Positions 59,960 through 64,000 of a stretch of DNA of 64,000 nucleotides are shown one piece after another (positions within the stretch are counted from its first letter, which is position 1; each line of letters begins with the position of its first letter). The notes under the pieces are model-generated. The model saw only the letters and a program-made list of their open reading frames with translations, searched no databases and had not been told where the DNA came from. Source of the stretch: Gemmatimonadota bacterium (lineage in GTDB: Bacteria > Gemmatimonadota > Gemmatimonadetes > Gemmatimonadales > Gemmatimonadaceae); the NCBI GenBank assembly GCA_027622655.1, contig JAQBYI010000005.1:1-64000 (forward strand), read 5' to 3'. Position numbers and translations under genes: made by a program.

Positions 59960-61480
59960 ATGAACTCCCTGTTCGCCCGCAAGCCGATCGCCGAGCTGGT
60001 GCCGGAGGGTTCAGAGGGCACGGGGCTCCGCCGCACGCTCACGACGATCGACCTCGTCGCACTGTCAATCGGTGCTGTGATCGGCGCCGGCATCTTTTCA
60101 TCCATCGGCACCGCCGCCGCCGGACAGATGGCCGCCGACGGCGTGACGGTCATCCGGTACGGCGCCGGACCGGCGCTGGTCCTCTCCTTCCTGCTGCTTG
60201 GCGCTATTTGCGCGCTCGCGGCGCTCTGTTACGCCGAGTTGGCGGCCATGATTCCGCAGGCCGGGAGCGCATACGCCTACTCCTACGCGACGCTCGGCGA
60301 GGTCGTGGCGTGGATCATCGGCTGGGACCTGATCCTCGAGTACGCAGTCGGAAACGTGGCCGTGGCCATCAGCTGGAGCGGGTATTTCGTCTCACTCCTT
60401 TCGGGGTTCGGCATCGAGATCCCCGGCTGGCTTGCACATGGCTACCGTGAGATTCTTCTTGCCGCACCGGACTCGCCGCTCAAGGCTCTGATGACCGAGG
60501 CGCCGCAGATCGCCGGCATTCCGGTACTGCTCAACGTCCCGGCATTCCTGATCGTCGCGGCCATCACCTGGCTCCTGGTCATCGGCGTAAAGGAGAGCAT
60601 GCGCGTCAACAAGGCGATGGTGATCGTCAAACTCGTCGTCCTGGCCGTGTTCATACTCGTCGGCGTTCAGCACATCGACATGGCCAACTACACGCCATAC
60701 GCTCCAAACGGATTCCGCGGAATTCACCAGGGCGCAGCAATCGTCTTTTTCGCATACATCGGATTTGACGCCATTTCGACAGCCGCTGAGGAAACCAAGG
60801 ATCCGCAACGCACCATGCCTCGGGGCATCCTCCTCGGCCTATTGGTATGCACGATCATCTACGTCGCCGTCGGGGCCGTTGCGACGGGCATCGTTCCCTA
60901 CAAGCAGTTGCTGGCGAACGATCCGCTCGCCGCCGCATTCGACCAAGCTGGCCTGCAGCAGTTCACGTGGTTCATCTCGCTCGGAGCGGTAGTGGCGACT
61001 AGTGCCGTTCTCCTCGTGTTTCAGTACGGTGGGCCGCGGATCTTGATGGCGATGGCCCGCGACGGCCTCCTGCCCGCATGGGCGGCAAAGATCCATCCGA
61101 AGTACCGCACGCCCCACGTGATGACGATGTTCACCGGGGCGATTGTTGCCTGCTGGGCCCTGATCGGCGATGCCGGTGAAACGTATGACCTGACGAACAT
61201 CGGTACGCTCTTCGCCTTTACGATCGTGGCGGTCGGTGTCATGGTGCTGCGAAAGCTCGAGCCGGACCGGCACCGGCCGTTCCGCATCAAGTACGTCTGG
61301 CTCGTGGCCAGCGTCGCCGCAGCTGCGTGCATCTTCGTGATGCTCGGGCTTCCGAGGCAGGCGTGGGAGCGGTTCGCCATCTGGCTGGCCCTTGGCCTCG
61401 CGGTCTACTTCCTGTATGGGCGCAAGCGTTCGCACCTGCGTCGCGCGCGCGATTCCGCGGCAGCCAGTGGTGGCGAGTAG
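59960..61480 (+). CDS. APC-family permease, cationic amino acid transporter type
   Basis: A 506-residue transporter with about 12-14 helices, similar to the CAT/YfnA group: IDLVALSIGAVIGAGIFSSI, YAELAAMIPQAGSAYAYSYA, IGWDLILEYAVGNVAVAISW, FFAYIGFDAISTAAEETKDP and RTMPRGILLGLLVCTIIYVA. CAT-type members carry arginine, lysine or neutral amino acids. An arginase/cyclodeaminase pair lies 0.8 kb downstream on the opposite strand, which would fit an arginine route, but this is inference. The region just after its stop holds a short tandem repeat. Confidence 0.88.
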   Translation: MNSLFARKPIAELVPEGSEGTGLRRTLTTIDLVALSIGAVIGAGIFSSIGTAAAGQMAADGVTVIRYGAGPALVLSFLLLGAICALAALCYAELAAMIPQAGSAYAYSYATLGEVVAWIIGWDLILEYAVGNVAVAISWSGYFVSLLSGFGIEIPGWLAHGYREILLAAPDSPLKALMTEAPQIAGIPVLLNVPAFLIVAAITWLLVIGVKESMRVNKAMVIVKLVVLAVFILVGVQHIDMANYTPYAPNGFRGIHQGAAIVFFAYIGFDAISTAAEETKDPQRTMPRGILLGLLVCTIIYVAVGAVATGIVPYKQLLANDPLAAAFDQAGLQQFTWFISLGAVVATSAVLLVFQYGGPRILMAMARDGLLPAWAAKIHPKYRTPHVMTMFTGAIVACWALIGDAGETYDLTNIGTLFAFTIVAVGVMVLRKLEPDRHRPFRIKYVWLVASVAAAACIFVMLGLPRQAWERFAIWLALGLAVYFLYGRKRSHLRRARDSAAASGGE

Positions 61481-61535: not shown

Positions 61536-62219
61536 ATGACCGGTAAGATCGTTTCGTTTCCGTCCAACGGACGAAGTGCGCAAGGGTATCTCGCACTTCC
61601 CGAATCCGGTAACGGTCCGGGACTCGTCGTCATTCAGGAGTGGTGGGGTCTTGTGGACCACATCACGGCACTCGCCGATCGATTCGCGGCCGCGGGTTTC
61701 GTCGCGCTCGCGCCGGACATGTATCACGGCGAAAAGACGACAAGCCCGGATCAGGCCGGAAAGCTCCTGATGGCGCTAAACATTGCTGCGGCCGGCAAGG
61801 ATCTGCGGGGAGCGCTGAGTTACCTCCGGAACCACGACGCGGTGGCACCGAAAAAGACGGGCGTGCTCGGGTTCTGCATGGGCGGGCAGCTCGCGCTGTA
61901 CGCTGCGCAGGAGCATCCTGACGTCGTCGACGCCGCGGTGGACTTCTACGGGATTCACCCGAAGGTGACCATCGAGCCCGCTCGCCTGAAGCCGCCGGTG
62001 CTCGGACATTTCGGGCTCAGGGACGAAAGCGTACCAACGGCCACGGTCGAGGCGCTTGCGGAGGCTGTTCGCAGTTCGGGCGGCACGTTCGAAATCCACC
62101 AGTATGACGCCGGCCACGCGTTCTTCAATGACTCGCGGCCGCAGGTGTTCGACGCGGATTGTGCGCGCGTCGCGTGGGACCGGACGCTGGCGTTTCTTGG
62201 CCGCCACCTGCGCGACTGA
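61536..62219 (+). CDS. Dienelactone hydrolase-family protein
   Basis: A 227-residue α/β hydrolase. The nucleophile is Cys114 in GFCMGGQLALYAAQ, and the Asp (FGLRDESVP) and His (YDAGHAFFND) of the triad are present. The start QGYLALPESG and VIQEWWGLVDH match the family, which includes carboxymethylenebutenolidase. It has no signal peptide. The gene has its own ribosome site (CAGGAGAG) and stands alone between the APC permease and the convergent arginine genes. The true substrate is probably not a dienelactone but cannot be told. Confidence 0.9.
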   Translation: MTGKIVSFPSNGRSAQGYLALPESGNGPGLVVIQEWWGLVDHITALADRFAAAGFVALAPDMYHGEKTTSPDQAGKLLMALNIAAAGKDLRGALSYLRNHDAVAPKKTGVLGFCMGGQLALYAAQEHPDVVDAAVDFYGIHPKVTIEPARLKPPVLGHFGLRDESVPTATVEALAEAVRSSGGTFEIHQYDAGHAFFNDSRPQVFDADCARVAWDRTLAFLGRHLRD

Positions 62220-62270: not shown

Positions 62271-63374
62271 CTAGGGTTGTTGGACCGCTTCTTCAACGAC
62301 GGCGCGCAGGATACTCATGAAGTCCTGAGCGTTGGTAACCACGCCCACCGCCTGGTGCGTGCCGCGGTCCTTCAGCTTGCTCACGAGAAACTCCGACGCG
62401 TCCACGGAAATCGTCGGGAGTTCGCGGAGAGTCTGGTCGGCGGCCTCGTAGTATGCGGGGAGCATGTTCCCTACGGCGATCGAATGCAGCGCCGTCGCCA
62501 CCATCACGGCCATCGTAGCTCGCACACAGTGGGCGCGCATGGCGTCCTGCCCGGCAATCGCATCCGTGATGACGTCGGGAAGCGGTCCGTCGTCGCGAAT
62601 CGATCCGCAGAGCACGAACGGCACGTGCTCGACGACACACGCGTGCATGATGCCTCCAGTGACAATGCCTGTTGTCACGGCGTCTGCGATCGAACCGGCA
62701 CGCCGCACGGCGTTTATCGCGCGCATGTGCGCCGAGTGACCGCCCTCGGTCGGCGCGCCCTCGCTGGTCATTCCCAGTGTCGTGCCGACGACCGACGCCT
62801 CGATGTCGTGAACGGCGACGGCGTTGCCGGCGAGCACGGCCTGCACGAAACCATTGCGAATGAACCAGACCATATTGTCGCGCGCCCGAGAGTGTACGAG
62901 CGCCGGTCCGGCCACCCAGATGATATACCCGCCTCGCCGTTTCTCGTCGACGAGCATCTGGGCGAGGCGACCATAGTCGATCGGTTTCTCCCTGGAAACC
63001 TGACTCTGCATGAAATGGAAATCTCCGCCCGCCGCTCCAGGGGCGGTGAACCCCGACGCATGCACGAGCACTCCCTCACTTCCGTCTTCTGTTCGGCCCA
63101 CAACTACCTCATCGCCGCGCTGCACGCGGCGCCCTTCACGCGCCCACCACGCGCCGTCCTCGTCGCGGACGAGGCACGCGTCCATGCGCGGTTGGCGCGG
63201 CATGGACCAGCTGCCGTCCGGGTTCTTGACGTATGTCGGCAGATTGGTCGTGGCGAAAAAACCGTCGGGCAGGACCCCGTCGCGCTCCACCCGCGCGGTC
63301 TGCGCCGCCGGAGCTTTGGTCAGCCGCGCCGTAGTGAAGTCCGGAACCCGATAGCCGGGCGTCTTGCGGGCCAT
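62271..63374 (-). CDS. LOR/SDH-domain protein, archaeal-type ornithine cyclodeaminase
   Basis: The 367-residue protein matches the LOR/SDH conserved-region family (TIGR00300), whose archaeal members are ornithine cyclodeaminases giving proline and ammonia. Typical segments are PDGFFATTNLPTYVK, FHFMQSQVSREKP, IIWVAGPALVHSRARDN, VQAVLAGNAVAVHDIEAS, SAHMRAINAVRRAGS, GGIMHACVVEHVPFVLCGSI and TALHSIAVGNMLPAYY. The nucleotide/Rossmann-type part lies in the middle. The same domain forms the C-terminal half of the cyanobacterial AgrE/ArgZ enzymes; their N-terminal arginine-hydrolysing domain is absent here. Instead, an arginase gene precedes it and overlaps by ATGA, so the two steps are split over two genes. 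Earlier annotation as lysine-oxoglutarate reductase would be misleading. Confidence 0.78.
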   Translation of the reverse strand: MARKTPGYRVPDFTTARLTKAPAAQTARVERDGVLPDGFFATTNLPTYVKNPDGSWSMPRQPRMDACLVRDEDGAWWAREGRRVQRGDEVVVGRTEDGSEGVLVHASGFTAPGAAGGDFHFMQSQVSREKPIDYGRLAQMLVDEKRRGGYIIWVAGPALVHSRARDNMVWFIRNGFVQAVLAGNAVAVHDIEASVVGTTLGMTSEGAPTEGGHSAHMRAINAVRRAGSIADAVTTGIVTGGIMHACVVEHVPFVLCGSIRDDGPLPDVITDAIAGQDAMRAHCVRATMAVMVATALHSIAVGNMLPAYYEAADQTLRELPTISVDASEFLVSKLKDRGTHQAVGVVTNAQDFMSILRAVVEEAVQQP

Positions 63375-64000
63375 CAGAGGATGCGCTTGCCGAACGCGCT
63401 CAGCGTGAGTTGCGCCGCGAGGTCGGCCGTGCGGTTATGCGTATCAATCACCGGGTTTACCTCGACGACATCGAGTCCCGCGAGCCGCCCCGTGTCGGCG
63501 AGGAGTTCCATCACGAGGTGTGCCTCGCGAAATGTCATGCCGCCGGGCACGGGGGTACCTACTCCAGGCGCCGCTGCAGGATCAACAACGTCGAGGTCCA
63601 AGGAAGCCCAGAGCGCCGTCGTCTCGCGAGAGGCGGAGGCAATGGCTTCGTTCACGACGGCGCGCACGCCGCGCTCATCGAGCGCGCGCATCGTAAATGT
63701 CGGAATCGACCAGGCCTCGATGTGGACACGCTCCGCATCATCCAGATCGCGAACGCCGAGCAAGGCGACGTCCGAAGCACGAATCGCCGGCGCTGGGCCA
63801 GCGACGCTCGCCAGCGGACCGTCGCCGTGTCCCAGCAGGTGGGCGAGCGGCATGCCGTGCACATTTCCGGACCTGGATGAGCTCGGTGTGTTCACGTCGC
63901 CGTGTGCGTCGATCCAGATCACACCGAGTCGGCCACCCTTCGCGGCGAAATGGGCCGCAGCGCCAGCGATTGAACCGGCCGCCACCGAATGATCGCCGCC
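63374..64000 (-). CDS. Arginase/formiminoglutamase-family enzyme (cut by window end)
   Basis: The last 208 residues are visible; the start lies beyond the right edge. All metal motifs in this part are intact: GGDHSVAAGS at the edge (first His), WIDAHGDVN with GNVHGMPLAHLLG, and SLDLDVVDPAAAPGVGTPVPGG. The length after GGDHS and the GVGTPVPGG loop are those of true arginases (RocF) rather than agmatinases. The reaction is arginine to ornithine and urea. Its stop overlaps the start of the ornithine cyclodeaminase-like gene, so the pathway would continue to proline. Confidence 0.85.
   Translation of the reverse strand, partial: GGDHSVAAGSIAGAAAHFAAKGGRLGVIWIDAHGDVNTPSSSRSGNVHGMPLAHLLGHGDGPLASVAGPAPAIRASDVALLGVRDLDDAERVHIEAWSIPTFTMRALDERGVRAVVNEAIASASRETTALWASLDLDVVDPAAAPGVGTPVPGGMTFREAHLVMELLADTGRLAGLDVVEVNPVIDTHNRTADLAAQLTLSAFGKRIL

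Follow-up and report, generated by a model that had tools for sequence, protein, structure and literature searches.

A conserved arginase gene paired with a predicted ornithine cyclodeaminase gene in Gemmatimonadota

At one end of a 64,000 nt stretch of a Gemmatimonadota contig (the whole stretch that was analysed, here called the window), an arginase gene runs into a second gene, which encodes a predicted ornithine cyclodeaminase (ODC_var). The locus raises the question of whether the two proteins act one after the other, taking arginine through ornithine to proline, and which cofactor the second enzyme would use. The features of the locus are listed in Table 1.

Table 1. Features of the arginase/ODC_var locus and its surroundings (window positions unless a contig is named).
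Feature	Position	Strand	Basis
Permease, BcaP-like	59960-61480	+	BcaP 530 bits, CAT TIGR00906 333 bits, both under cut-off
Dienelactone-hydrolase gene, between permease and pair	61536-62219	+	ORF/domain call
ODC_var, predicted ornithine cyclodeaminase (ArgZ/AgrE C-terminal, deoxyhypusine-synthase-like fold), 367 aa, ATG start	62271..63374	-	NF052526, PF21570/PF21571, model
Lys333 in SKLKDRG, candidate catalytic lysine	62376..62378	-	46/46 sequences; also in 3c2q, AgrE
HSRAR, ODC_var residues 161-165, in place of HTGGG of AgrE/3c2q	62880..62894	-	alignment to 3c2q/6lrf
TGATG stop/start overlap, arginase stop and ODC_var start	63372..63376	-	sequence, spacing survey
Arginase, C-terminal 208 of 303 aa in window; open at window edge	63374..64000	-	TIGR01229, 1cev alignment
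NagK-like kinase and SSS sodium:solute symporter, upstream of arginase	C98:64289-66732 (L001:4290-6733)	same as arginase	beyond window end

Both open reading frames were found where the first-pass annotation had placed them, and the overlap it described between the arginase stop and the start of the second gene is present, with one base, at 63374, common to the two codons. This arrangement likely couples the translation of the two genes. The arginase gene extends past the window to C98:64285 (contig C98, 78 kb). The complete protein scores over the cut-off of the arginase equivalog TIGR01229 (284.9 vs 227.6 bits) and aligns end to end with the arginase 1cev, whose Mn-ligand motifs it likewise contains; GGDHS (96), DAHGD (126) and LDLDVVD (229) are all intact.

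ODC_var scores over the cut-off of NF052526 (451.4 vs 440 bits), with residues 1-361 matching profile positions 1-362 of 364. No sequence difference sets it apart from this family, whose function is putative and whose title in NCBIfam is 'putative NPN-dependent ornithine cyclodeaminase', NPN being nickel-pincer nucleotide. It also matches PF21570 (258 bits) and PF21571 (38 bits), which describe the C-terminal regions of ArgZ. The first-pass annotation had called the overlapping gene an archaeal-type member of the LOR/SDH family. It had the superfamily right but not the family: the score against the archaeal family TIGR00300 is under the cut-off (304.3 vs 410.8 bits), with a match that begins at profile position 79, and PF04455, the LOR/SDH region itself, falls short of significance at 15.2 bits against 23.5 and is matched only at profile positions 72-99, its last 28. 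The profile of the bifunctional AgrE/ArgZ proteins, NF052231, matches with its C-terminal half alone (247.9 vs 1025 bits).

An AlphaFold model of ODC_var, built from 46 homologues, had a pLDDT of 87.4. The best Foldseek matches of this model were 3c2q from Methanococcus maripaludis (E = 1.8e-37) and the AgrE structures 6lrf, 6lrg and 6lrh (∼1e-29 to 1e-32 for AgrE/ArgZ), and the next fold neighbour was deoxyhypusine synthase. ODC_var has the fold and most invariant residues in common with the archaeal 3c2q, at 37-40% identity by structure, but is without most of the N-terminal LOR/SDH region. The alignment of the 46 homologues contains 57 invariant columns, which include N184, H189, D190, E192, H213, H216, R260-D261-D262, H297, N303, D325, K333, D336 and R337. 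Where AgrE has HTGGG, ODC_var has HSRAR, and this difference is a conserved one (R165 in 46/46 sequences, R163 and H161 in 45/46 each). Judging from the deoxyhypusine-synthase-type fold, HSRAR is probably the cofactor loop, and by analogy with deoxyhypusine synthase the loop may contact the cofactor, so that the ODC_var pocket may differ from that of AgrE. Conservation makes Lys333 a candidate for the catalytic lysine. No cysteine is conserved across the ODC_var family; the four in the window protein (67, 246, 256 and 283) are all variable, and Cys264 of AgrE, mutated in PDB entry 6lrh, precedes the stretch that aligns to ODC_var (residues 368 on). The lack of a catalytic cysteine, which the first-pass annotation would have counted against the enzyme, thus has no bearing on this family.

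ODC_var was found in 144 of 346 genomes of the phylum. An arginase gene lies directly adjacent on the same strand in 28 of the 105 ODC_var loci examined there, the nearest ODC_var start being mostly at -3 to +30 from the arginase stop. These 28 sequences come from six genera of the window's family and group as a single clade in the ODC tree, with support 100. The pair also recurs beyond the phylum: five Desulfobacterota/Geobacter-type genomes have it tightly packed in reversed order, ODC_var then arginase, and one Clostridiales genome has the two genes tail to tail. With these pairs counted, arginase linkage needs three changes on the ODC tree, which suggests that the coupling arose independently about three times. 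Good evidence that the two genes are functionally coupled comes from their re-assembly in different orders. The pair is therefore conserved and real, and chance adjacency in a single genome can practically be dismissed given 28 loci in six genera and six loci in other phyla. Together with the family match, this linkage bears out the central claim that arginase is coupled to an ornithine cyclodeaminase of the AgrE/ArgZ C-terminal type.

The related named loci come from Gemmatimonadota and are for the most part Gemmatimonadaceae MAGs. Myxococcus and Corallococcus have members of the family with 66-68% identity to the window protein, and homologues at ∼41-47% identity are found in Desulfobacterota/Geobacter-type bacteria, Clostridia, Spirochaetes and others. 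On the tree the Myxococcus and Corallococcus sequences (L137, L139, L141, L158) nest inside those of Gemmatimonadaceae, which suggests horizontal transfer. The Corallococcus protein has an N-terminal extension (773-aa open frame), which we considered as a second arginine-hydrolase fusion and rejected, as no domain was found in it.

In most unlinked loci of the phylum (L046-L085) ODC_var often has priA on one side and a FUR-family regulator on the other, and a DsbD/CcdA-type membrane protein is encoded downstream; loci of this type from some genera continue with pyruvoyl arginine decarboxylase and agmatinase. In four Desulfobacterota-type loci (L164, L165, L178, L185) ODC_var adjoins, and is convergent with, carbamate kinase, beyond which lies a ∼445-aa protein without a clear Pfam family. 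Where the neighbours of ODC_var are informative, they belong to arginine metabolism.

A CAT-type permease near the pair had been proposed to supply arginine. We rejected it as the supplier, since it is on the opposite strand with a gene in between, scores nearer to the branched-chain permease BcaP and accompanies the pair in only the two closest relatives. More of the linked genomes have an SSS symporter next to the pair than have the permease there; in genus g2 many genomes carry such a symporter on the upstream side of arginase, often as its immediate neighbour. Should a transporter be part of the module, this symporter is a more plausible choice than the permease.

The genome that contains the window (G000, completeness 99.67%) has no match to the classical ornithine cyclodeaminase/mu-crystallin family PF02423, an absence that the first-pass annotation had anticipated along with that of ornithine aminotransferase. 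The latter holds in part only. None of the seven class-III aminotransferase matches in the genome is an ornithine aminotransferase equivalog, but one of them is of the PRK05769 type (572 bits, cut-off 552) and could, by its family, act on ornithine to some extent. With class-III aminotransferases present, the missing equivalog is not decisive.

An absence that we had not expected is that of ProC (TIGR00112), which is missing from the window genome, from all 14 genomes of its genus and from 28/28 arginase-linked genomes. ODC_var and ProC avoid each other in the phylum: among the 346 genomes 15 have both, 129 ODC_var only, 86 ProC only and 116 neither (odds ratio 0.16, from related genomes whose counts are not phylogenetically independent). 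Put differently, ProC is missing in 129 of 144 genomes with ODC_var vs 116 of 202 without it. This avoidance, together with the lack of ProC in the linked genomes, suggests a role of ODC_var in proline supply.

The 116 genomes without ProC and ODC_var show that another source of proline exists. They weaken the argument for ODC_var as the only proline route, and we do not claim that it is essential. Five of the 14 genomes of the window's own genus (G027, G057, G173, G236, G315) are likewise without both. Such genomes may take up proline as auxotrophs or make it with another enzyme.

The two-step chemistry is already known with other enzymes. The noc region of Ti plasmids encodes an arginase and an ornithine cyclodeaminase of family PF02423 (PMC4575208, citing Sans et al. 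1987), and an arginase plus ornithine cyclodeaminase route is also described for haloarchaea (PMC3102087). Both use the same two steps with a separate arginase; the Ti enzyme belongs to the family that is absent from the window genome. The cyanobacterial AgrE/ArgZ proteins (NF052231; 6lrf-6lrh, 6juy) have the same ODC fold at ∼34% and 31% identity and the same net route from arginine to proline with ornithine as the intermediate (PMC8262935). Their first step is catalyzed by a fused arginine dihydrolase that yields CO2 and ammonium, whereas the separate arginase of the window would yield urea. This contrast between a fused domain and a separate gene had been drawn correctly in the first-pass annotation; its remark that such a pair is little described is true of the NF052526-type enzyme and not of the arginase and ornithine cyclodeaminase route as such, which is old. 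The present locus adds a form of the route in which an NF052526 enzyme is encoded apart from the arginase, the repeated assembly of this pair, the lack of ProC, and a set of genomes that lends itself to a natural test of the cofactor.

From the families, the fold, the conserved linkage and the missing genes we infer that the pair probably forms a coupled arginine to ornithine to proline module that supplies proline and nitrogen. The Mn-dependent arginase would convert L-arginine to L-ornithine and urea, and ODC_var would convert ornithine to L-proline and ammonium by hydride-transfer deamination and cyclisation, with NPN made by LarB, LarC and LarE encoded elsewhere in the genome, or with NAD, as the cofactor. 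Neither ornithine aminotransferase nor P5C reductase would be needed. As ProC is missing in the window genome and in all linked relatives, the module probably supplies proline besides nitrogen and is not confined to breaking down arginine, and it offers a concrete hypothesis for the proline source of ProC-less Gemmatimonadota. A purely catabolic use, in which arginine is taken for nitrogen and proline is oxidised to glutamate through proline dehydrogenase, following the AgrE-PutA pattern, would fit the usual role of arginase, the position of the SSS symporter upstream in the window's contig and in many g2 genomes, and the way AgrE of cyanobacteria works (PMC8262935). We regard it as rather unlikely, because with ProC absent no known proline-forming enzyme would be left without ODC_var. 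It is more doubtful still that ODC_var acts on another diamine or amino acid, such as lysine or 2,4-diaminobutyrate, and that arginase merely shares its operon. The N-terminus and cofactor loop do differ from TIGR00300, against which the score of 304 bits is under the cut-off, and NF052526 is annotated only putatively, but the family has become associated with ornithine and arginine genes repeatedly and independently, in several arrangements and phyla.

Within the proposed module the cofactor is contested, with NPN and NAD about evenly placed. The window genome encodes the NPN synthesis proteins LarB (276 bits), LarC (392 bits) and LarE (282 bits), all over cut-off, and is without LarA. It thus shows the 'orphan' lar pattern; larB, larE and larC without larA occur in about 15% of genomes analysed, and the cyanobacterial client protein was 'yet-to-be-identified' in 2024 (PMC11796402). 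For such genomes the locus offers a small, separable, arginase-coupled candidate client. TIGR00300 is named 'nickel-pincer nucleotide-dependent' in NCBIfam 20.0, and NF052526 putatively so. In all 28 arginase-linked genomes larBC is present and LarA absent. We scored a genome as larBC-positive on finding LarC; the 20 ODC-positive genomes that had no LarC were scored positive if they had LarB. Across the 346 genomes, 129 have both ODC_var and larBC, 15 ODC_var only, 42 larBC only and 160 neither (odds ratio 33; p ∼8e-40, a value not to be taken literally because the genomes are related). Where ODC_var loci were queried for lar genes, none was seen beside ODC_var, and none of the papers searched links nickel-pincer with ornithine cyclodeaminase.

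The co-occurrence is not strict, as 15 of the 144 ODC_var genomes, from five genera, have neither larB nor larC (G012, G016, G030, G044, G074, G081, G123, G142, G164, G214, G270, G277, G295, G302, G319). They include the one-contig genome G074 and several that are at least 98% complete, and the larBC state changes six times on the ODC tree. In these genomes ODC_var keeps essentially all of its invariant residues: each position that is at least 98% invariant is retained by no fewer than 80% of the 15 genomes, a share that is 90% or higher everywhere except at G93 and V154. We found no sequence signature that splits larBC-positive from larBC-less ODC_var. Intact enzymes in larBC-less genomes are unexplained if ODC_var strictly needs NPN. 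They argue instead for the same reaction with NAD, as in AgrE, which was crystallised with ornithine and NAD+ (PDB entry 6lrg); LarB, LarC and LarE would then serve another enzyme, for example the GSU2086-family protein of the same genome, which tracks larBC equally strongly. The naming of TIGR00300, the co-occurrence with larBC and the uniform larBC-positive, LarA-less state of the linked genomes all speak against NAD, as does the replacement of HTGGG by HSRAR, owing to which AgrE-like NAD binding cannot be assumed. On balance we give NAD a little less than an even chance.

A combined history is conceivable but unlikely. In it ODC_var would have outlived repeated loss of NPN synthesis, using NPN in larBCE lineages and NAD in the fifteen genomes that lack larBC, and would have taken the place of ProC in the arginase-linked lineages, where an organonickel enzyme would make proline from arginine. 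Close relatives would then share one hydride-transfer reaction but use either of two nicotinate-derived cofactors for it. Genomes with and without larBC that encode the same enzyme form a natural contrast set for the question of NPN or NAD.

Twelve genomes encode larB and larC with no ODC_var, GSU2086-family protein or LarA found (G020, G050, G104, G131, G166, G184, G209, G235, G294, G314, G323, G327). The GSU2086-family protein of the window genome (NF052581, 397 bits) is encoded at G000:C62:13525-14433 (L211:4885-5964), and the family scores over cut-off in 152 genomes of the phylum. It is a distant relative of ODC_var with a common HDxE motif (hhalign probability 89) and tracks larB/larC with an odds ratio of 30; 19 larBC-positive genomes without ODC_var or LarA contain it. 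The family is a candidate for a second non-LarA nickel-pincer client. In 15 of 17 GSU2086 contexts the gene is preceded by a conserved same-strand gene that scores as a glycosyltransferase-2/DUF3108 fusion.
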